56,122 bases of DNA from positions 1 through 56,122 of the forward strand of contig CAIZMI010000055.1 in assembly GCA_903934015.1 (NCBI GenBank), written 5' to 3'. The notes below the pieces were generated by a model. It saw only the letters and a list, made by a program, of their open reading frames with translations. It was not told the origin of the DNA and did not search any database. The position numbers were made by a program, and so were the translations under genes. The DNA is from an uncultured bacterium. Its GTDB lineage: Bacteria; Patescibacteriota; Andersenbacteria; UBA10190; CAIZMI01. This document shows positions 2,005-39,120 of this stretch, one piece after another (within the stretch, counting starts at the first letter, position 1; the number at the start of each line of letters is the position of its first letter).

Positions 2005-3105
2005 ATGGCTTTCTGGAGGAAAGACAATCTTCAAAAAAATGCCAGCACTGTGGTGATTGCGGTGCGTGGTGACAGCTTTTATGTCATAAGGGGTTATCGT
2101 GATAAAAATGCGCGTGCGATTAAAATTCAAGGGGAGGCTACTTTTTCGATAGAAAACAGTGAGCGACTAGAGCAGTTATTGCAGGAAAAATTAGGTTGTC
2201 AGGAAACTGATATAATTTATTATACAAAACCGTCGCCACTTCTTTTGGGTGTATCTTTGACAGTTAATTTGCCTCGTTATGAAGCCGGTCATCCTGTAAT
2301 TTTGGATACCCGAGAGGCGATGCATCGAATAAAGTGGAAGACTGCGGATTTTGTGCGTGAAGAGGCCTCTCATTATTTTGGTTGTTCCCTTGAAGAGGTT
2401 GGTAATTTTGGTGTTACAGTTGAAAAATGGAAGGAAACAGATGATGAGGTTGAAGCAACTTTGTTTCATATCTGCGTGCCAAAATTTAGTAATGAAGATA
2501 ATGGATTAATACAACTTGGAACAAATCAATTTGTTCTCCCGATTGTTTTGAGTCAGGAAGTTGGGAGTGGTGACGATGTGGAAGCGGTTTTACATACGGA
2601 AGATAATTTATCAACGATCGCTATTCGTCAGAATAATCAATTAAAGCATTTGCGATCGCTTAATTGCGGTATCGGTGTAATTCGTGATCATTTGGAAAAA
2701 AGTTTAGATTGTTCAAAAAACGAAGCCGAGGTGTTGATGAAAAATTGTCTGGAAGGAAAACTGTCTGAAGCAAATCAAAAAGTAATAATTCGTTTGATGC
2801 GTCAACTTTTGCCGTTATGGGCGGGCATGTTTTCTGTGGCGATGGACAATATTCCAATATCAGAAAGACCACTGAAATTGTTGATTACAGGGCTTTTCCC
2901 CAAAATGATTGCGCAACTGTATTGTCGTCCACAGTTGTTGATGCGTTGGTCTCATATTCCCGTAAAAGTGACAACATTAATGAAGGATGATGATTTGTTG
3001 GGAATGCGGTCGTCACTTCGTGTTGCACTGAAACAGATGACACGTGAAAGTAACGGATTACAAATAGGCACATCGGTGCGGTCATTCCAGCAGGTAGTTT
3101 CTTAA
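2005..3105 (+). CDS. FtsA/PilM-like actin-fold protein (putative)
   Basis: A 366-residue protein whose pattern suggests the FtsA/PilM (actin-like ATPase) superfamily. The central segment around residues 210-250 (LKHLRSLNCGIGVIRDHLEK, then a helix and an EAN..I turn) resembles the strand-loop-helix of FtsA/PilM, and a later LLITGLFPKMI strand resembles the adenosine-binding region. No signal peptide or membrane segment is seen. It sits 4 bp upstream of a single-pass membrane protein with a baseplate-J-like domain, an arrangement reminiscent of PilM with a membrane partner. An extended -10 (TGCTAAAAT, 1987-1995) lies 9 nt before the ATG. The family assignment is inference; a role in pilus or envelope assembly is possible but unproven. 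Confidence 0.55.
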   Translation: MAFWRKDNLQKNASTVVIAVRGDSFYVIRGYRDKNARAIKIQGEATFSIENSERLEQLLQEKLGCQETDIIYYTKPSPLLLGVSLTVNLPRYEAGHPVILDTREAMHRIKWKTADFVREEASHYFGCSLEEVGNFGVTVEKWKETDDEVEATLFHICVPKFSNEDNGLIQLGTNQFVLPIVLSQEVGSGDDVEAVLHTEDNLSTIAIRQNNQLKHLRSLNCGIGVIRDHLEKSLDCSKNEAEVLMKNCLEGKLSEANQKVIIRLMRQLLPLWAGMFSVAMDNIPISERPLKLLITGLFPKMIAQLYCRPQLLMRWSHIPVKVTTLMKDDDLLGMRSSLRVALKQMTRESNGLQIGTSVRSFQQVVS

Positions 3106-6815: not shown

Positions 6816-8378
6816 ATGACAAAAGAACAAGAACGGGCGGAATTGCACCGTGCTATTTGGCAGATTGCCAATGATTTGCGCGGAAGTGTGGATGGTTGGG
6901 ATTTCAAGCAATACGTGCTGGGAATACTTTTTTATCGTTTTATCAGTGAAAATTTGACCAATTACATTAATGAAGATGAGCGACGGCTGCCAGGAAAAGA
7001 AACTTTTGATTATGCTAAACTTACTGATAATGAGGCGGAATTTGGTCGCCATGAAACAGTTATCAACAAAGGTTTTTACATCCTTCCGAGCGAGCTTTTT
7101 ACAAATGTGAAGAAAAATGCCCGCAATGACGCCAACCTTAACGAAACCCTTACCACTGTTTTTCGTAACATTGAAAATTCGGCGAAAGGTGCGAGCAGTG
7201 AAGATGATATTAAGGGATTGTTTGATGATCTTGATGTGAACTCTAATAAATTGGGTGGCACAGTAGAAAAACGAAATCAGAAACTTGCAAAACTCTTTGA
7301 ATCTATTGGCGATCTTCGTCTGGGCAATTATTCCGACAACACCATAGACGCTTTTGGTGATGCGTACGAGTTTTTGATGACTATGTATGCCTCAAACGCC
7401 GGTAAGTCCGGGGGCGAATTCTATACTCCACAGGAAGTTAGTGAGCTACTAGCCGAAATCACTACGGTTGGCAAAAAAGAAGTGAACAAGGTTTATGATC
7501 CGGCTTGCGGTTCGGGTTCGCTACTTCTAAAATTTGCCAAGGTTCTCGGTAAAGAAAATGTTCGGCAGGGCTTTTTTGGACAGGAAATAAACCTCACCAC
7601 CTACAACCTTTGTCGTATCAATATGTTTCTGCATGACATCAATTACAATAATTTTGACATTGCGCATGGCGATACACTCATCGATCCGAAACATTGGGAC
7701 GATGAGCCGTTTGACGCCATTGTTTCCAATCCGCCGTATTCGATTCATTGGGAAGGCGATGCAAACTCGCTTTTAATCAACGATCCGCGTTTTTCTCCGG
7801 CAGGAGTACTTGCGCCAAAGAGCAAGGCCGATCTCGCGTTTACTATGCACATGCTTTCGTGGCTATCGACAAGTGGAACGGCAGCGATTGTTGAATTTCC
7901 CGGCGTTCTCTATCGTGGTGGCGCGGAGGGTAAAATAAGAAAATATTTGGTAGACAATAACTATGTCGATGCCGTTATTCAACTTCCTCCCGACCTCTTT
8001 TTTGGTACGACAATCGCCACCTGCATCATCGTGCTCAAGAAAAGCAAGAAAGATAATAAAACACTTTTCATTGATGCTTCTGTCGAGTTCGTCCGTGGCG
8101 GTAACAAAAACAAATTAAGTGAAGAAAATCGCAAAAAGATTTTGGACGCTTTTACTACTCGTAAGGATGCGGAGTACTTTGCCAAGCTTGTTGATAATAA
8201 AACCATTGCCGAGAATGACTACAATATAGCCGTATCGAGTTATGTGGTGGGCGAGGATACTCGCGAAATAGTGGATATCACAGAACTCAACACAAAAATC
8301 GCCAAAATAGTCGCAAGACAAAATGAACTCCGTACCGCGATTGATGAGATCGTGGCTGATATTGAGGGTGATAAATAA
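6816..8378 (+). CDS. hsdM: type I restriction-modification system, DNA methyltransferase subunit
   Basis: 520 residues; N6-adenine methyltransferase and core of the HsdM2-S complex. The N-terminal helical domain (WQIANDLRGSVDGWDFKQYVLG) is the typical HsdM_N. The SAM-binding motif DPACGSGSLLLKF starts near residue 228 and the catalytic NPPYS motif near residue 305. The C-terminal tail (TKIAKIVARQNELRTAIDEI) is a helix expected to pack against HsdS. That tail is repeated as a free-standing remnant after the next gene (see 9410-9499). rhuM starts 6 bp after the stop. Confidence 0.97.
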   Translation: MTKEQERAELHRAIWQIANDLRGSVDGWDFKQYVLGILFYRFISENLTNYINEDERRLPGKETFDYAKLTDNEAEFGRHETVINKGFYILPSELFTNVKKNARNDANLNETLTTVFRNIENSAKGASSEDDIKGLFDDLDVNSNKLGGTVEKRNQKLAKLFESIGDLRLGNYSDNTIDAFGDAYEFLMTMYASNAGKSGGEFYTPQEVSELLAEITTVGKKEVNKVYDPACGSGSLLLKFAKVLGKENVRQGFFGQEINLTTYNLCRINMFLHDINYNNFDIAHGDTLIDPKHWDDEPFDAIVSNPPYSIHWEGDANSLLINDPRFSPAGVLAPKSKADLAFTMHMLSWLSTSGTAAIVEFPGVLYRGGAEGKIRKYLVDNNYVDAVIQLPPDLFFGTTIATCIIVLKKSKKDNKTLFIDASVEFVRGGNKNKLSEENRKKILDAFTTRKDAEYFAKLVDNKTIAENDYNIAVSSYVVGEDTREIVDITELNTKIAKIVARQNELRTAIDEIVADIEGDK

Positions 8379-8384
8379 AAATAT

Positions 8385-9407
8385 ATGAATAAAGAAAACA
8401 GCAGCGAAATATTAATCTACGAAGGTGAGGGAGGAAAGCCGAAGGTTTCAGCGCGTATAGATGGACAAACAGCATGGTTAACACAGGCGGAGTTGGCGGA
8501 GTTGTATGGAACATCACGACCAAATGTTACGATGCATATCAAGAACATTTTCGAGGAGGGGGAATTGGATATGCATTCAGTATGTAAGGATTTCTTACAT
8601 ACTGCCGCTGATGGTAAGAATTATAAGACAAAATCCTATAATCTTGAGCTTGTTGTCGCCCTTGGTTACCGTGTAAAATCTGAGGCCGGTACGAGATTCC
8701 GCCAATGGGCAACAGCGCGACTGAGCGAATACATTGTGAAAGGCTTTACTATGGACGACGCACGGCTTAAGGGTTCTGGTGGTGGAGCGTACTGGAAGGA
8801 GCTTCTTGAGCGTATTCGCGACATCCGTTCGAGTGAAAAGGCGCTCTACCGCCAAGTGCTCGACCTGTATACAACAAGCATTGACTACAGTCCAAAAAGT
8901 AAAGAAACAACCCTTTTTTTCAAAGTGGTGCAAAACAAAATTCATTACGCCACCAATAAACAAACTGCCGCAGAACTTATTCACTCCCGCGCAGACGCAG
9001 AAAAGGATTTTATGGGACTCACCACATTCGCAGGAGCTCTACCGGTGCGGAGCGAGATAAGTATTGCAAAAAATTATCTGAATAATGAGGAGCTCTTTCG
9101 CATGAACAGACTCGTGAACGCCTTCTTTGACCTCGCAGAATTGAAAGCGCAAGAACAAACCCCAATGCATATGAAAGACTGGGTCGCCGAACTCGACAAG
9201 TTTTCAAAAATGTACGGCAAGGGATTACTGCTTGATGTGGGCAAAGTGGGCCACGAGCAAGCGATAGATAGAGCAGAAAAAGAATACAAAAAATATCAGG
9301 CCAAAACCCTTTCGCCAGTTGAGGAAGCGTATCTTGACAGCATAAAAGAAATTCAAAAAAGGGTTGAGAAAAAAGTAAAAAGCGACAAACCAAGCCGTAA
9401 AAAATAG
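8385..9407 (+). CDS. rhuM: RhuM family protein inserted in the type I RM operon
   Basis: 340 residues. The start of the domain, ILIYEGEGGKPKVSARIDGQ, and the following WLTQAELAELYGTSRPNVT..HIKNIFEEGEL give the winged-helix DNA-binding region that defines RhuM; VALGYRVKSEAGTRFRQWA follows at about residue 88. The C-terminal half resembles a Fic/DOC-like helical region but lacks a clear HPFxxGNG motif. RhuM genes are commonly found between hsdM and hsdS in type I loci; their role is not settled. A copy of the hsdM 3' end directly after this gene suggests it arrived as a cassette. Confidence 0.9.
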   Translation: MNKENSSEILIYEGEGGKPKVSARIDGQTAWLTQAELAELYGTSRPNVTMHIKNIFEEGELDMHSVCKDFLHTAADGKNYKTKSYNLELVVALGYRVKSEAGTRFRQWATARLSEYIVKGFTMDDARLKGSGGGAYWKELLERIRDIRSSEKALYRQVLDLYTTSIDYSPKSKETTLFFKVVQNKIHYATNKQTAAELIHSRADAEKDFMGLTTFAGALPVRSEISIAKNYLNNEELFRMNRLVNAFFDLAELKAQEQTPMHMKDWVAELDKFSKMYGKGLLLDVGKVGHEQAIDRAEKEYKKYQAKTLSPVEEAYLDSIKEIQKRVEKKVKSDKPSRKK

Positions 9408-31595: not shown

Positions 31596-32006
31596 ATGCT
31601 TGAATTTGACAAAGAAAAACTAAAAGAAATCGCGGAAAAATACGGTTTAGCCGATGTTTATTTATTTGGCTCAAGAATTTCCGGTTTTGCAAGAGCAGAT
31701 AGCGATCTTGATGTTGGAATAAGATTCAAAAACGGTTTGCCTAAAGAAGAAGAAAGAGGGAAATTGTATGGCGACATTTTTTCTGATTTGTCGTTGTGTT
31801 TTGCAGAAGTAAAGATTGACTTGGTTTTTATTGATGAAGTTTTGTTGCATTTTCAGTATAAAATTATCAACGACGGTCAATTGATTTATTCAAAAAATGA
31901 AGAAAATTCGATGAATTTTGAGGAACAAATTGGAAATTATTACAGGGATTATAAATATTTTATCGATGAATATTTTAAGGGTGTTTTAGCTTTTTCTGCC
32001 AAATAA
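31596..32006 (+). CDS. mntA: MNT-domain nucleotidyltransferase antitoxin (MntA-like)
   Basis: 136 residues. Minimal nucleotidyltransferase with GSRISGFARADSDLDVGI: Gly-Ser at about 25-26 and the metal-binding aspartates D37 and D39, with a third D in IDLVFID. In MntA/HepT modules the MNT protein polyadenylates and silences the HEPN toxin. The active site is complete. The partner hepT begins 1 nt after the stop. Confidence 0.9.
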   Translation: MLEFDKEKLKEIAEKYGLADVYLFGSRISGFARADSDLDVGIRFKNGLPKEEERGKLYGDIFSDLSLCFAEVKIDLVFIDEVLLHFQYKIINDGQLIYSKNEENSMNFEEQIGNYYRDYKYFIDEYFKGVLAFSAK

Positions 32007-32007
32007 A

Positions 32008-32445
32008 ATGATGGAAGATAATTTCAACAAAGAAAAAGTTGTTGAGCGGATAGGTGATATTAAAAACTCTGTTTTGGAATTGGAGAGATTCCAAAAAATG
32101 GATTTGGATGAATTTTTGAAAGATAATGACAATTATAATCTGTCTGCCTATCATTTGAGGATTGGTATTGAAGCGGTTTTGACAATCGGAACGCACATTT
32201 TGTCGCGGATTCCGCAAAACGGAAAGAAAAAGGATTATACCCAGGTCATTTTGTCATTGGCTGATTATAGTGTCTTGCCGAAGGATTTTAGTCAAAAAAT
32301 TAAAGGAATGGCGGGCTACAGGAACCGTTTAGTGCATCTTTATTGGAAAATAGAACCGAAAGAGCTCTTGACGGTGATCAAAGAAAATTTGGGCGATTTA
32401 GAGGAATTTATCAAATATATCGAAAAGTTTTTGAAAACTCTCTGA
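32008..32445 (+). CDS. hepT: HEPN-domain toxin (HepT-like, DUF86)
   Basis: 145 residues, all helical. The RNase motif of HEPN toxins (R-x4-6-H) is present as RNRLVHLYW (R105 and H110) after the conserved MAGYRN segment; YW follows as in DUF86 proteins. Member of an MNT/HEPN toxin-antitoxin module that acts as an RNase under stress or phage attack. Confidence 0.9.
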   Translation: MMEDNFNKEKVVERIGDIKNSVLELERFQKMDLDEFLKDNDNYNLSAYHLRIGIEAVLTIGTHILSRIPQNGKKKDYTQVILSLADYSVLPKDFSQKIKGMAGYRNRLVHLYWKIEPKELLTVIKENLGDLEEFIKYIEKFLKTL

Positions 32446-32628: not shown

Positions 32629-33177
32629 ATGTCTTCACATTCTTCACATTTCATTGTTGTCTTGGCTTTATTATTTTTAGGAATTGGAGGTATTTTGTTT
32701 GTTAATCAACGGTTTTCGAATAAAAATAACGTGATACAGGAACAAATAATCTTTTCAGATGAAGAACAGAATCAAATACGGAATGTAGTCAGCGATTTTG
32801 AAAATAGTATGAAAGACGATGTTAGACAAGAAAGATTAGATAGTTCACTAGCATTTTTTGTTGCGGATAATCGGGAAAGTGATAAAACATATCGGGAAAA
32901 ATTTTTAGCAGAATTGGCAGGGAAAAGTTATAGTTTCAAGATCATAAGCTATAAAATGATTTTGCCGTCGGAATCTATAAATGGGGTGGTTACGGTACTG
33001 GTGGAAGAAACGCGCGATTATGAACAAAAAAGTAATTATGGAGTAAAATTTTCGCGTCAAATTAGATTAAAAAATATTGATGGTTGGAAGATCGAGGCGT
33101 ATAAAAATATGAGTTCGGGTAATATTTATTCGGGTAGCTTATCAGGCAGTGAAAAATATAGTGGTTTTTATCCTTAA
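32629..33177 (+). CDS. membrane-anchored extracytoplasmic protein, unknown
   Basis: 182 residues. N-terminal anchor (FIVVLALLFLGIGGILFVN, about 8-26), then a soluble domain of about 150 residues with a helix followed by strands (GVVTVLVEETRDYEQKS, KNIDGWKIEAY). The layout is like NTF2-type or DUF4878 domains, but this is a guess. It lies upstream of the DGR target and may share its transcript. Confidence 0.6.
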   Translation: MSSHSSHFIVVLALLFLGIGGILFVNQRFSNKNNVIQEQIIFSDEEQNQIRNVVSDFENSMKDDVRQERLDSSLAFFVADNRESDKTYREKFLAELAGKSYSFKIISYKMILPSESINGVVTVLVEETRDYEQKSNYGVKFSRQIRLKNIDGWKIEAYKNMSSGNIYSGSLSGSEKYSGFYP

Positions 33178-33291: not shown

Positions 33292-34641
33292 ATGAACATT
33301 AAACATTTCTCTAAAAATCATCTAGTTTGTTTGGCGTTATTTGTGTTTTGTACGGCATCCTTATTTCTGGCAAATTCCGCTTCAGCTAATAACGTCGCGG
33401 TAGCAAATGTGTCTTTGCAAAATATCAACACAAGTGCAAAAACTGTGCAGATTAAATTTGATTTGTCGCAAAGCAACGCGTTTGGCGATCTTACTTGGGA
33501 CGGCAATGCTTTTTCAGACTACTTGTGGATAACCGTAAAATACAGCGCGGACGTGCTTAATTTGCCTAACGATGGTTATAAACACGCCACACTGGCGTCG
33601 GGAGGAACAATTACGCCGTCATCGGATAATCAGGGTGCCTTTGTTAAGGCTTCAGACGCGACAACAAATATGACTGTGGTTTGGAATTACGGTGCAAACA
33701 GCGTCGCGGATAACGCGATTGTTAATGTTAAAGTTTTAGCGTTGGAAACCGTTAAAATTCCCGAAGGCGCGTTTATTTATAACGCCGGTGGTATTGGCGG
33801 GGCACTCTTTAATAATTATGGTGGTGGCGCGCAAGCAACGGTCAGTTCCGTCGCAAATATTCCCACAGGAGCCGCTTCCGGGTGGCCAAACGGATTTGGT
33901 TCATTTTATTTGGCAAAATACGAAGTTTCGCAAGGGCAATATGCTGATTTTTTGAATATGCTTTCTACTACCGACTCTACTGCACGTTTTGGCGCCACTT
34001 CCGCAAATGGGTATACAATAACCTACACTGCCGGCAACGCGTATGGTAGTAGGTACTCAGCCAGTGTGCCCAATCGCGCCAGTAATTTTATTTCATGGGA
34101 CGATGCCAAAGCGTACGCCAGTTGGCTGGCGATGCGACCAATGACGGAAATGGAGTTCGAAAAGGCATCCAGGGGCACCACCCTTGGTGGTACAAACACA
34201 AATACGTATCCGTGGGGCAACACCGCGCCGGATACTGCCACATACTCGTATAACGACGGTTCCGGAGCGGCCACGATGAATAAATTTTTCGCTTCCTACA
34301 ATAGCACGCTAGCTCGTCCGGTTGACGTTGGGCATTTTTTGAGAGGAGATATCGCGCGAACAAATGAGCAAACCGGCGCCTCGCCTTATGGTGTAACAGA
34401 CTTGGCCGGTAACAATTGGGAGCATTTAATAAATTGCGCGCAAACTGTTGTGCCGGCCAATGGTGGTGGCACTGTTACCGCGCCTGCTTCATGGCCGGTG
34501 GCCTCCGCTGGAAAAGGCATTCGTGGCGGGTATTGGAACGGCGGTGCCACTTACTTGCGTGTGTCAGACCGTATCGACGCCGGCTACACGAGCGCGGTTC
34601 GCTACGGCAATGTCGGCTTTCGGCCCACCAGGACTAATTAG
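33292..34641 (+). CDS. DGR target: secreted SUMF1/C-type-lectin-fold protein
   Basis: 449 residues from ATG 33292 (MNIKHFSKNHLVCLALFVFC). An upstream in-frame start at 33181 would bury the signal peptide, which ends near SANSASA. An N-terminal beta domain (about 28-185) is followed by a formylglycine-generating-enzyme (SUMF1) type domain with FYLAKYEVSQGQYADFLNML, FISWDDAKAYASWLAMRPMT, EMEFEKASRG, YPWGNTAPD, GVTDLAGNNWEHL and the final NVGFRPTRTN. This fold is the commonest DGR scaffold. It most likely binds ligands at the cell surface rather than acting as an enzyme. Residues 414-441 contain the 13 diversified codons. Confidence 0.93.
   Translation: MNIKHFSKNHLVCLALFVFCTASLFLANSASANNVAVANVSLQNINTSAKTVQIKFDLSQSNAFGDLTWDGNAFSDYLWITVKYSADVLNLPNDGYKHATLASGGTITPSSDNQGAFVKASDATTNMTVVWNYGANSVADNAIVNVKVLALETVKIPEGAFIYNAGGIGGALFNNYGGGAQATVSSVANIPTGAASGWPNGFGSFYLAKYEVSQGQYADFLNMLSTTDSTARFGATSANGYTITYTAGNAYGSRYSASVPNRASNFISWDDAKAYASWLAMRPMTEMEFEKASRGTTLGGTNTNTYPWGNTAPDTATYSYNDGSGAATMNKFFASYNSTLARPVDVGHFLRGDIARTNEQTGASPYGVTDLAGNNWEHLINCAQTVVPANGGGTVTAPASWPVASAGKGIRGGYWNGGATYLRVSDRIDAGYTSAVRYGNVGFRPTRTN
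34515..34634 (+). repeat. DGR variable repeat (VR)
   Basis: 120 bp at the 3' end of the target gene, ending 4 nt before the stop codon. Aligned without gaps to the template repeat at 35261-35380, it differs at 15 positions, all of which are A in the template; no other base differs. Changed codons are Y414, G417, G418, Y421, L422, I428, D429, Y432, S434, V436, Y438, G439 and V441. The last 22 bp (34613-34634), GC-rich TCGGCTTTCGGCCCACCAGG plus AC, are identical and fit an IMH-like initiation site. Confidence 0.97.
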
Positions 34642-34703
34642 CCGTTTGATCGTTTTGCGTCGCGTAGTGAAAATTTGTTTTTAATTTTATCTAAATATAA
34701 ATT

Positions 34704-35042
34704 ATGGCTAATCTCGCGCCTGTCGTTCTAAAACATTATGATTTAATCTTGTGGATGTTTCCAAAAATTTCAAAGTTTCCGCGTGATCATAAATTTTTGC
34801 TCGGGGATAGGATAGAAAATTTGTTGTTGGATATTTTGAAAAACCTAATGACCGCAAATTATCAACCCAGCACGCGCGTAAAAAATTTAACGGATGTAAA
34901 CCTAATGTTGGATTATCTGCGTATTTTGACGCGCCTTTGTAAAGACCTGAATTTTTTTAATAATAAAGAGTATGAGTTTCAGGCGAAGGCCGTCGATGAA
35001 ATTGGTCGGATGGTGGGAGGCTGGGCTCGCGCGCAAAAATAA
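34704..35042 (+). CDS. avd: DGR accessory variability determinant (Avd-like)
   Basis: 112 residues, all helical, consistent with the four-helix bundle of Avd proteins. Conserved-looking features include an aromatic first helix (YDLILWMFPKISKFPRDHKF), LLGDRIENLLLDILKNLMTA, and a basic tail (MVGGWARAQK). Avd binds the DGR reverse transcriptase and template RNA and is needed for mutagenic cDNA synthesis. It lies between the target gene and the template repeat, the usual order. Confidence 0.88.
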   Translation: MANLAPVVLKHYDLILWMFPKISKFPRDHKFLLGDRIENLLLDILKNLMTANYQPSTRVKNLTDVNLMLDYLRILTRLCKDLNFFNNKEYEFQAKAVDEIGRMVGGWARAQK

Positions 35043-35075
35043 GTTTTAACCGGCGTGGGGGAGAATGCTAGAGTT

Positions 35076-35156
35076 TCCGGATCATAAAAATAATCCGGAG
35101 AGCAGGCAATTTTTAGTCCAAAGTCAATTTCCTTGGCTTTAAAACTTTAAAGCCAA
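35076..35156 (+). other. hairpins in the DGR leader between avd and TR
   Basis: Two stems: TCCGGAT (35076-35082) with ATCCGGA (35093-35099), and a perfect 11-bp stem TTGGCTTTAAA (35133-35143) with TTTAAAGCCAA (35146-35156). They precede the template repeat in a non-coding stretch (35043-35260) and may shape or end the transcript that supplies the template RNA. The second could also act as a terminator, though it lacks a T tail. Confidence 0.6.
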
Positions 35157-35260
35157 AATAGGGCGAAGTATGTTTTGTTTAGCCGGTAGCTGTAATTACG
35201 GTGAAAGTTATTCAAAAGTAAGGAATCGCCGCCCAGATTATCAGGGAGTTGGCTTCGCAC

Positions 35261-35380
35261 AGGCATTCGTGGCGGGAATTGGAACAACGATGCCACTAAC
35301 ATGCGTGTGTCAGACCGTAACAACGCCGGCAACACGAACGCGGATCGCAACAACAATATCGGCTTTCGGCCCACCAGGAC
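35261..35380 (+). repeat. DGR template repeat (TR)
   Basis: 120-bp non-coding template, 746 bp downstream of VR and 30 bp upstream of the RT start. It is rich in AAC (11 codons are AAC or AAT in the VR frame), a codon whose A-to-N changes cannot create a stop. 15 of about 35 adenines are changed in VR; C, G and T are never changed. It supplies the RNA that the RT copies with errors at A before the cDNA replaces VR. Confidence 0.97.
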
Positions 35381-35410
35381 GCTACTTCTCCACGCCAGTT
35401 AAAACTTGCA

Positions 35411-36421
35411 ATGATTACGTTTAAAAACCTATTTGCCCAAATAATCACTTTCCAAAACCTAAATAAAGCTTGTCATGAAGCGGCGCGTGGAAAGAAAAAT
35501 AAATACGGTGTTGCGGATTTTATCTTGAACAAGGAGAAAGAAATATTGCGTTTGCAAAATGAACTGGAGAATGGCTCATACGCGCCCGGCGGTTATCATA
35601 CGTTTTGGATCGCGGAATATGCCAAGAAACGGGAAATTAGCGCGGCGCCGTTTCGTGACCGCGTTGTTCATCACGCTTTCTGTCAAATTGTCGAACCAAT
35701 CTTTGATAAACGCTTCGTTTTTCATTCATTCGCGTGTCGCATAGACAAGGGAACACACAAGGCTTTGAAAGTTTGTCAAAATTATTTAAGGCGGAATAAT
35801 TTTGTTTTTCAGGGCGATATTGTTAAATATTTCAACAATATCGATCAGGATATTTTGCTTGGTATTTTGAGAAAAAAAATCAAGGATGATAAAACTATGC
35901 GGTTGGCCGAGCTGATAGTTTTTTCTTGGAATAAAGATACCGGAAAGGGTGTACCGATTGGTAATTTAACGAGTCAGTTTTTTGCCAATCTATATTTGAA
36001 TGAATTGGATTATTTCGTAAAGTTTAATTTGCGCGAGTATTTTTACTTACGCTATATGGATGATTTTTTAATCTTCGGCACTGATAAAAAAATTCTCCAG
36101 GCGCGTCAGTTGCAAGTAACAGAATATATTTCAGACAAACTGAAACTGGCTCTGCATCAAAAGAAGACGTTAGTTTATTTTTGTTCCCTTGGGGTTCCTT
36201 GGCTTGGTTTTCGTATTTTTAATCATTATCGGCGCCTAAAGAGGGCGAACATTCTGCGCTTCTTGAAAAAAATACGGATATTGCGCAAGCGGAGTTTGCG
36301 AACGGGGCATGAATTTGAGGAAATATTAAAGGCCGTGAATCGTTGGATAAATCATGCTGAAAGCGGAGATACTTACTGTTTAAGAAAAAAGCTATTTCGT
36401 GGTATAATTCTTAACAAATGA
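35411..36421 (+). CDS. DGR reverse transcriptase
   Basis: 336 residues. Group II-intron-like RT of the DGR class. Catalytic carboxylates: D136 in FQGDIVKYFNNID, and Y215-M216-D217-D218 in LRYMDDFLIFG. Motif 4 reads IGNLTSQFFANLYLNELD (G184-Q189), the SQ-containing form typical of DGR RTs rather than QG of retroviruses. A basic thumb follows (RRLKRANILRFLKKIRILRK). No maturase or endonuclease domain. The stop overlaps the start of the next gene (ATGA). Confidence 0.97.
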   Translation: MITFKNLFAQIITFQNLNKACHEAARGKKNKYGVADFILNKEKEILRLQNELENGSYAPGGYHTFWIAEYAKKREISAAPFRDRVVHHAFCQIVEPIFDKRFVFHSFACRIDKGTHKALKVCQNYLRRNNFVFQGDIVKYFNNIDQDILLGILRKKIKDDKTMRLAELIVFSWNKDTGKGVPIGNLTSQFFANLYLNELDYFVKFNLREYFYLRYMDDFLIFGTDKKILQARQLQVTEYISDKLKLALHQKKTLVYFCSLGVPWLGFRIFNHYRRLKRANILRFLKKIRILRKRSLRTGHEFEEILKAVNRWINHAESGDTYCLRKKLFRGIILNK

Positions 36422-39120
36422 TGGTGTGGCAAATAAATAAAGAAAAAATATCGGTTTTAGGTGGTATTTGCATATGTTTTGTTATGTTTTTATTGGCGTT
36501 TCCAGGCATTGCTTTTGCTGATCAATATACGGGCGGTTCCGGGGACGGCTTTTCCCAAAGCGAAACGGGGACAATACGGTTAAATACACTTCTTTCTGAA
36601 GATCCTTTTTTTAGAGTTTCGTATCTGGGGGGTTCCGGTGACGGTTGGGTAAGTAGTGGCGTGAGTAGTGTTGTTGATACAATCGCTCCAAGTGGTGGGT
36701 CGGTTAGTTATACAAATGGTTTCTATACTTCAATCAGTGTGCCGATTACATATAACACTGGTTCTGACACTGGTTCCGGCCTCAACTTAACAACGGGAAA
36801 AATTCAGCGTTCCAGTGCCACTTTAACCAATGGATTGTGTGGGTCGTATTCAAGCTTTTCTGAACTTGTCATGGAATATGATGGTGCATACACAGATATA
36901 ACTGTTAGTACGGGTAATTGTTACAAATATCAATATCTTATTTCGGACGTTCAAGGTAATCAAGCGATTTTTACTTCTACAAATGAGGCTAAGGTTGATA
37001 CAATTCTCCCAACCATTACAACTGTTTCATCCGACAAAGCCAATGGAACATACGGCGTGGGTACTGTTATTGATATCGACCTCACCTTCTCCGAACCGGT
37101 CACATCTACCGGTACCGGTACAATTACGCTCGAAACCGGCGCAACCGATCAAACTTGCGATTTTACTGTCACTAATTCCAGCACCGCTACTTGTAACTAC
37201 GTTGTGCAAGCGGGAGACCAAAGCAGTGATCTCACTGTTAAGACAGTGGCGGGAACAATCAAAGATTCCGCGGAGAATGCCGTCACTAACTTTGTTCCCG
37301 CATCCAACCTTGCCGTCACTAAACAAATCGTCATCGATACTTCTCCCACTGTGCCATCCGGTCTAACCGGCACCGTTCTCTCCTCCACCTCAATCAGATG
37401 GGACTGGACGGATAACAGCAGTGATGAAACAGGTTTCAAACTGTATTCCGGTACCGGCACGTTAATCACCACACTGTCCGCAGGAATTGCAACATACACC
37501 GAGACCGGTCTTACTAAAGGAACAACATACAACCGCAAGCTTCTTTCATATAACGCCGGTGGTAATTCCGCCTACACAACAACCGTCTCCGTCCTCACTT
37601 ACGCCGAACCAACCGCGCCCTCAAGTTTTACTGGAACGGCAATTTCTTCCACTGCCATCACGTGGAATTGGTCAGACAACAGTAATTACGTAGCTGGTTT
37701 CAAACTATACGACGAAAACAATAATCTTATCACCACGATTGAAGAAGTGAATCAACAGTCATATACCGAAACTGGGCTCACCAAAGGAATTAGCTACACC
37801 CGCCAAATCACGGCTTATAATGATGCTGGTATCTCTGCTAAATCAAATTCTGTTACGGTTGAAACACTCTCAATCGCCATGGCTTCACCGAAACTAAATT
37901 CTCCCACTCCTGATAGCGAACTCACTACCGTTACGCCCACCTTTTCTTTCAACCGCGTCACCGACGTCGACGGCGTTAAATCATACACCCTCTTGATCGA
38001 CGAAGGAAAGTCTAATGAAATGTCGTACACAATTGATAATATCCCCGATGGCTCAACAGTTAACAGTTCCGACTATACCGCGCAGGGCAATCAAGATTCC
38101 ATTACTATAACCCTTAAAACTCAAGCGGGAATGGTGAGAGGCGCTCACACCTGGAAAATTCGTGCCATGGACAATCTGAGTGAAACAGGGGACTCCGACT
38201 TTGCTTCTTTCACAGTTGTCTTGCCGGTAGCGGTTACCAATCAAGAAGATCAAGTAACGGCAGATCAGCTGATTATCAGAATTCCTCTGTTACAAAAATT
38301 AGCCCAAAAAACCCTTACCCCCAAAGAAGTAACCAAGCAGTACCAAGAAGGAAAGACTCCCTCTCGCACCAGTCCCTCGCTCTGGCTTGATAATTTAGAG
38401 AAACAAGCGGAACTAAGAGCGGATAAGCAAACAGAGAACATGGATCAATTCTTGAGCAAACTTATTACAATGCTTGCCCCGCGAAGCTTTAGCGGAGTGG
38501 GGAAGCAATTGCAAGCGTTTAACGATGGCGTGGAAGCATTTAGAAAAGAAACGCAAAGTAAAATCGCCGGTTGGTTTAATACCCTTAAAAACCAAGTTAT
38601 CGCTTTCTTTACGAGAACAACTCCCGCAAGCGGACAACGGTTTTTCGCTTTCCTCTCTTCCTCGTTCCACAATACGGGAAATTGGTGGAATGAACTAACG
38701 AAGCAGGGAAGAAACAATCGTTTGGCCTTGGCGGAACAAGGAGAAAAATTTGCCAACTTGGCGCTTAATCCGACACAACGCACGCTTGAAAGAGTTCGTC
38801 TTGCTTCGGTTGGTTCATTTGAAGCGTTAAGCGGAAATTACGAAAAAGGACTTAGTATCGGCGACATCCATCTCTCCGAAATTGCAAACAACGAAGCTAC
38901 ACTTAAATGGACCACCAATCGCTTAACCCGCGCCAAAGTCAACTACGGCGAATCGTTAATGTACGGTGAGGAAATCTTCATCGACCGTTATGACAAAAAG
39001 CAAACAACCAAATTAACAAACCTAAAACCCAACACCAAGTATTACTTTGAAATTATCGTTACCGACCTGCAATATAAACAAACATACGACGCCTATTACA
39101 GCTTTGTGACGAAAGAGTAG
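36418..39120 (+). CDS. large secreted protein with Ig/fibronectin-like domains
   Basis: 900 residues. Signal peptide (VLGGICICFVMFLLAFPGIA), two GGSGDG motifs near the mature N-terminus (YTGGSGDGF and YLGGSGDGW), then a series of Ig-like/FN3-like domains (about 80-610). A helical region (about 625-790) with KTLTPKEVTKQYQEGKTPS follows, then a last FN3-like domain (DIHLSEIANNEATLKWTTNR to YYSFVTKE). The start is coupled to the RT stop. From about 37000 the + strand becomes C-rich, suggesting a composite origin. It may be the surface partner or anchor of the diversified lectin; this is inference. Confidence 0.8.
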   Translation: MMVWQINKEKISVLGGICICFVMFLLAFPGIAFADQYTGGSGDGFSQSETGTIRLNTLLSEDPFFRVSYLGGSGDGWVSSGVSSVVDTIAPSGGSVSYTNGFYTSISVPITYNTGSDTGSGLNLTTGKIQRSSATLTNGLCGSYSSFSELVMEYDGAYTDITVSTGNCYKYQYLISDVQGNQAIFTSTNEAKVDTILPTITTVSSDKANGTYGVGTVIDIDLTFSEPVTSTGTGTITLETGATDQTCDFTVTNSSTATCNYVVQAGDQSSDLTVKTVAGTIKDSAENAVTNFVPASNLAVTKQIVIDTSPTVPSGLTGTVLSSTSIRWDWTDNSSDETGFKLYSGTGTLITTLSAGIATYTETGLTKGTTYNRKLLSYNAGGNSAYTTTVSVLTYAEPTAPSSFTGTAISSTAITWNWSDNSNYVAGFKLYDENNNLITTIEEVNQQSYTETGLTKGISYTRQITAYNDAGISAKSNSVTVETLSIAMASPKLNSPTPDSELTTVTPTFSFNRVTDVDGVKSYTLLIDEGKSNEMSYTIDNIPDGSTVNSSDYTAQGNQDSITITLKTQAGMVRGAHTWKIRAMDNLSETGDSDFASFTVVLPVAVTNQEDQVTADQLIIRIPLLQKLAQKTLTPKEVTKQYQEGKTPSRTSPSLWLDNLEKQAELRADKQTENMDQFLSKLITMLAPRSFSGVGKQLQAFNDGVEAFRKETQSKIAGWFNTLKNQVIAFFTRTTPASGQRFFAFLSSSFHNTGNWWNELTKQGRNNRLALAEQGEKFANLALNPTQRTLERVRLASVGSFEALSGNYEKGLSIGDIHLSEIANNEATLKWTTNRLTRAKVNYGESLMYGEEIFIDRYDKKQTTKLTNLKPNTKYYFEIIVTDLQYKQTYDAYYSFVTKE

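Follow-up and report, generated by a model that had tools for sequence, protein, structure and literature searches.

The window, a 56,122-nt stretch of DNA from an uncultured bacterium of the Patescibacteriota, contains a diversity-generating retroelement (DGR) which is, beyond reasonable doubt, a genuine chromosomal DGR. It is a new element in a CPR-like genome and belongs to a kind that is itself known. The structured RNA found 5' of its template repeat (TR) makes this element, together with a larger set of DGRs, a new variant in RNA anatomy. We regard it as likely that the element has a closed RNA whose 5' domain would bind the complex of reverse transcriptase (RT) and accessory protein (Avd) and prime cDNA synthesis, and that the variable repeat (VR) of a secreted target would thereby be rewritten. 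The features are listed in Table 1.

Table 1. Features of the DGR and of the gene preceding it, in window coordinates
Feature	Position	Strand	Description
Gene of unknown function	32629..33177	+	182 aa; probable N-terminal membrane segment
Target gene	33292..34641	+	449 aa; signal-peptide-like N-terminus; N-terminal beta domain; C-terminal FGE-sulfatase/C-type-lectin domain
Variable repeat (VR)	34515..34634	+	final 120 bp of target; 15 mismatches to TR
Avd accessory protein	34704..35042	+	112 aa; NF033474 (E 1.3e-30); bAvd PF22296 (1.3e-18)
5' arm (a1)	35041..35063	+	23-nt inverted repeat; would close the DGR RNA
Structured RNA domain 5' of TR	35066..35160	+	GCYAGAg motif, P1, GUCC-A joiner, P2
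Hairpin P1	35074-35101		part of the 5' RNA domain
GUCC + A35120 (joiner)	35116..35120	+	GUCC predicted to pair with GGAC at the TR end (35377-35380)
Hairpin P2	35134-35155		part of the 5' RNA domain
Template repeat (TR)	35261..35380	+	ungapped alignment with VR, offset 746
3' arm (a2)	35385..35407	+	23-nt inverted repeat; between TR and RT start
DGR-type reverse transcriptase	35411..36421	+	336 aa; YMDD and IGNLTSQ in translation

Cassette and adenine-specific repeats

The cassette is ordered target, Avd, TR and RT, and each of its three proteins was confirmed by profile. The RT matches PHROG 1423 (E 1.2e-102), its best solved relative is chain 8ub7 (8.8e-51), and the Avd score exceeds the NF033474 cut-off. 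A retron-type RT was considered and rejected, as the St85 model gave 49.9 of the 235 bits needed and the DGR RT profile and structure fit far better. The earlier note had described a complete DGR with an Avd gene ahead of the template and a DGR-type RT (YMDD, SQ motif) behind it; profiles and translation confirm this arrangement, and VR/TR pair, Avd, RT and target are all present.

The target combines an N-terminal beta domain (residues ~35-156) with an FGE-sulfatase domain (204-444, E 3.6e-21). This match fits the SUMF1/C-lectin fold proposed in the earlier note, as assigned by family. VR corresponds to residues 408-447, at the C-terminal end of the C-lectin-type domain, and the genome holds one FGE-sulfatase gene. 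Two AlphaFold runs on the target were both poor (pLDDT 42.9 and 31.2): the N-terminal beta domain alone was well predicted and the lectin domain failed. A fold search with these poor models returned no match. Because both runs failed on the lectin domain, the clustering of variable residues was taken from the family, by which they would lie on one binding face. Surface exposure of the target is suggested solely by its signal-peptide-like N-terminus.

Every one of the 15 VR/TR differences falls on a template A; eight are A>G, seven A>T and none A>C, and the first non-A mismatch of the ungapped alignment falls just beyond the repeat, at 34635/35381. Of the 120 nt of TR, 35 are A, and 15/15 differences at A would arise by chance with a probability of ~7e-10. 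The absence of A>C (0/15) was not significant against the spectrum of relatives (P ~ 0.07) and was set aside. In the 118-nt TR core, the 34 A are spread over codon positions 1, 2 and 3 as 19, 14 and 1, and no stop codon can be created by A substitution in TR. Thirteen codons, corresponding to target residues 414-441, have changed between VR and TR, and TR contains nine AAC codons. The 23 variable codons could give ~10^19 possible proteins. The repeat coordinates, the gapless alignment with its 15 template-A differences, and the 13 varied codons with AAC templating had all been read from the letters alone in the earlier note and were confirmed, the coordinates being exact. A search for TR across the 1.34 Mb genome gave no match besides itself and VR. 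In the Bordetella phage, a GC-rich hairpin directly after VR is required (PMC3240598), whereas a search of 34615-34720 in the window found no stem of at least 6 bp with a 3-6 nt loop.

Relatives of the element and copying of the template

In the RT tree, the window is paired (100/100) with its nearest orthologue, which comes from genome G016 of another family of the same order (locus L066, G016:C36). The pair stands beside a Brocadiia row (95/69) and an Omnitrophota clade (100/100), and outside a group of 33 CPR-type rows, among which are C54 and C19, two further DGRs from the genome that contains the window. By this tree, the window RT is not of the usual CPR clade and groups with Brocadiia/Omnitrophota DGRs. 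The Omnitrophota/Brocadiia DGRs compared (L016, L018, L020, L021, L023 and L031) share with the window the gene order, the RT clade and a 5' RNA with P1. Their targets are FGE-type proteins that share the N-terminal domain of the window target, and the aligned targets are 38-52% identical.

DGRs are frequent in CPR (PMC8144416), as the earlier note had said, and RT matches in 126 of the 380 genomes of the phylum, about one third of those sampled, fit this. Several DGRs per CPR genome, and a link between CPR DGRs and AAA ATPases, are also known (PMC10907252). CPR-type DGRs, which are probably RT clade 2 of PMC8144416, resemble the window in their A-only VR/TR differences and Avd, and many have the P1 motif 5' of TR. 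Unlike the window, they have their Avd gene on the opposite strand, in the interval from TR to RT, and form a separate RT clade. Both CPR-type elements of this genome have their own TR/VR pairs differing at A and adjoin AAA-type ATPase genes. In L049 (G000:C54), next to an AAA_5 gene, TR lies at 8286-8424(-) and the candidate VRs at 8733-8871(-) and 2237-2339(-), one of which, with 4 to 6 differences at non-A sites, would be an older or remote target. L050 (G000:C19), the third DGR of the genome, has TR at 1186-1294 and VR at 773-881 with 11/11 differences at A; here, too, Avd occupies the opposite strand between TR and RT, with AAA_5 and transglutaminase-domain genes downstream. L051 (G000:C29, 7579-8157(-)) is a 192-aa RT fragment without its N-terminal part and without TR/VR, and is a probable relic of a fourth DGR.

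The RT, Avd and target of G016 are 63%, 68% and 70% identical to those of the window. G016 has 17 VR/TR differences, all but one at an A of its TR, and the TRs of the two elements differ at 18/118 sites. Ten of these sites have no A in either TR, and in nine of the ten both VRs equal their own TR. Since each VR has kept to its own TR as the TRs diverged, template copying appears to have continued after the lineages split, and repeated copying in each lineage would be the best explanation. The earlier note had argued for recent activity from the intact RT and the A-only divergence of this one locus. The comparison with G016 strengthens that suggestion, for which the single locus gives weaker support.

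In a congener (G001), the NTase-HepT genes and an fn3 gene adjoin without a DGR, and the cassette is absent at the matching site. This absence, as well as the fragmentary C29 RT, would suit a decaying or silent DGR whose A-only differences are a record of past homing. Such a state is distinctly unlikely, given that the parts are all intact, VR and TR agree wherever the template base is not A, TR is free of stop-prone codons, and the RNA keeps its fold across two families, with a compensatory change. Directly upstream of the cassette, the NTase (MNT-like) and HepT pair (31596-32445), kept in the congener, is probably a toxin-antitoxin module. The gene that follows it, at 32629-33177, was found within the order in no genomes other than the two carrying this DGR, and it adjoins the DGR in both. 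Its protein ends in SGSLSGSxKYSGFYP and is a possible partner of the target. Downstream, the start of the fn3 gene (36418-39120) overlaps the RT stop (ATGA); its homologue in the congener is ~2,440 aa, and the window gene, at the DGR junction, is much shorter. We do not count this gene (36418) among the parts of the DGR, because the congener, which has no DGR at all, also carries it.

Structured RNA ahead of the template repeat

The Avd gene is separated from TR by 218 nt, and TR from the RT gene by 30 nt. The 218-nt interval is conserved in G016, with compensatory changes. The two arms listed in Table 1 form the sole inverted repeat in 34640-35600 and enclose the structured RNA and TR. They score 49, while 1000 shuffles gave 21.2 +/- 3.0 and none exceeded 35. 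Counterpart arms (GGCGUGGGGGCG/CGCCCCCACG) are found at the same place in G016; compared by eye with those of the window, one A-U pair has become C-G, three pairs show a one-sided change and 0/12 are broken. The RNA units of window and G016 adopt the same closed fold (z -5.87 and -4.97), and VR folds no better than shuffles (z +0.74).

The first covariance model was built from six other loci, and the window and G016, which were kept out because MAFFT misaligned their P1, served as held-out tests. With this model the corresponding place is found in L020 (3.9e-6), in L066 (0.0013) and in the window, where it is the best match in 4 kb (0.0085). P1 is paired in 94-96% of cells versus 63-70% in shuffles, and 7/8 pairs have changed on both sides. 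The 96% goes with 70% in shuffles and with at most 50% when P1 is slid, and a set of 16 loci behaves likewise. A wider model, applied to 361 genomes of the phylum, gave 28 matches of which 26 lie at DGR parts; nine of the 28 are training loci, and 17 of the 19 others lie at DGR parts. In this search the motif stood 5' of TR in 19/19 matched loci with a detected TR. The E-values throughout come from a shortened calibration, and model R3 was partly trained on loci found. Two matches in G161 (L135 and L149), near contig ends, have no RT, Avd or TR in reach and are possible orphan template RNAs. The 5' RNA has no Rfam match, and no description of the domain was found in the literature searched; an earlier description is possible.

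In the window, this block begins just past the avd stop codon, as might be expected of a terminator or regulator in the avd mRNA, unrelated to reverse transcription. That role is highly improbable. The distance between block and TR is regular (161-207 nt from motif start to TR start in 17/20 loci), and CPR-type DGRs keep the block 5' of TR, although their avd lies across TR on the opposite strand. A domain belonging to the template RNA is the reading we prefer.

In Bordetella phage BPP-1, the 144 nt between TR and brt fold and prime, an internal adenine of this 3' spacer priming at the TR 3' end (PMC12875486). In the window, the structured RNA lies 5' of TR rather than 3', and no Bordetella-type structured priming spacer was found 3' of TR, the RT gene being 30 nt away. 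A canonical DGR would require that the 3' priming spacer be hidden in the start of the RT gene and that the 5' RNA merely stop cDNA synthesis. The RT gene follows directly behind TR, and therefore RNA and coding sequence could overlap; priming from the 3' spacer and termination of reverse transcription by a motif at the 3' end of avd are both known from the Bordetella phage (PMC12875486). This explanation is unlikely, however, as TR in G016 has no RT gene behind it, only ~40 nt and then palindromic repeats. In addition, the motif is found weakly 3' of TR, 19-29 nt past it, in L025 (E 0.05), L078 (0.17) and perhaps L044 (2.9), and in L025 and L078 no upstream terminator is possible. Because of these loci, the domain seems, on weak scores, to have changed sides relative to TR among DGRs.

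The G016 locus is rearranged: the RT gene points the opposite way from target, Avd and TR, Bro-N and RhuM genes lie between Avd and target, and the gaps are filled by palindromic repeats. Inverted-repeat arms, RNA domain and TR remain together despite this inversion. Palindromic repeats around 'GGATTCCGGCTCAAGGCCGGAATGACG' are numerous between the DGR genes (L066, 6600-13700), and they may be behind the inversion of the RT gene.

Pairing between 5' and 3' flanks was scored by a compact-helix test against swapped partners, which replaced an uninformative generic duplex-energy test. The six DGRs with the best own 5'-3' pairings, among 49, all belong to the window/Brocadiia/Omnitrophota group, with the window first. 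In the predicted fold, GUCC (35116-35119) pairs with GGAC (p ~ 0.8; 4 bp only), and in the window and G016 joiner-TR pairing is no better than with swapped partners. This pairing is much longer in Omnitrophota loci and is convincing there only. The TR 3' end pairs with the joiner after P1 in Omnitrophota, whereas in the window, G016 and L031 it pairs mainly with the arm before P1.

Proposed mechanism and its meaning

In the mechanism proposed for the closed RNA, the Avd-TR intergenic region and TR would be transcribed as a ~370-nt RNA closed by the 35041-35063/35385-35407 helix, and the covarying domain just 5' of TR would bind the RT-Avd complex. This domain would bring the TR 3' end beside the conserved UCCA, whose A would prime cDNA synthesis. 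The RT would then misread A while copying TR, and the resulting cDNA would take the place of VR in the last part of the secreted FGE/C-lectin target, so that up to 23 residues of the presumed binding face could be varied. A35120, the A of UCCA, is suggested as the primer because a spacer adenine primes at the TR 3' end in the Bordetella phage. The priming adenine of that phage is A56, with its local pairing. Binding of RT-Avd, priming by the UCCA adenosine, and the cell-surface role and ligand of the target are all what we infer for this element.

The BPP-1 element (mtd-avd-TR-brt) resembles that of the window in gene order, Avd, A-only TR/VR changes, RT family (chain 8ub7) and C-lectin-type target. 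Retron ncRNAs have the layout a1-msr-msd-a2-RT. Like the window, they have inverted-repeat arms around a 5' structured part and a template, followed by the RT. The window RT is of DGR type, with VR and A-specific mutation, and the RNA layout alone is similar. It is tentatively suggested, with slightly less than even confidence, that the Omnitrophota/Brocadiia-type and CPR-type elements form a DGR class whose RNA is a circular permutation of the Bordetella RNA and in which a conserved adenosine on the 5' side of the template primes the cDNA, in a retron-like layout. The order in such a permuted RNA would be closing arm, structured RT-binding/priming domain, TR and closing arm.

The start of DGR reverse transcription is known from one phage, by way of the RNA behind the template. 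The conserved RNA ahead of TR in many chromosomal DGRs predicts another presentation of template and primer, and in G016, where the RT gene has been relocated, this RNA and TR are still together. Together, the 5' domain and TR make up a small, testable RNA unit, and the covariance model can be used to find template RNAs without a nearby RT. Finally, a link between DGR and retron RNAs is possible.
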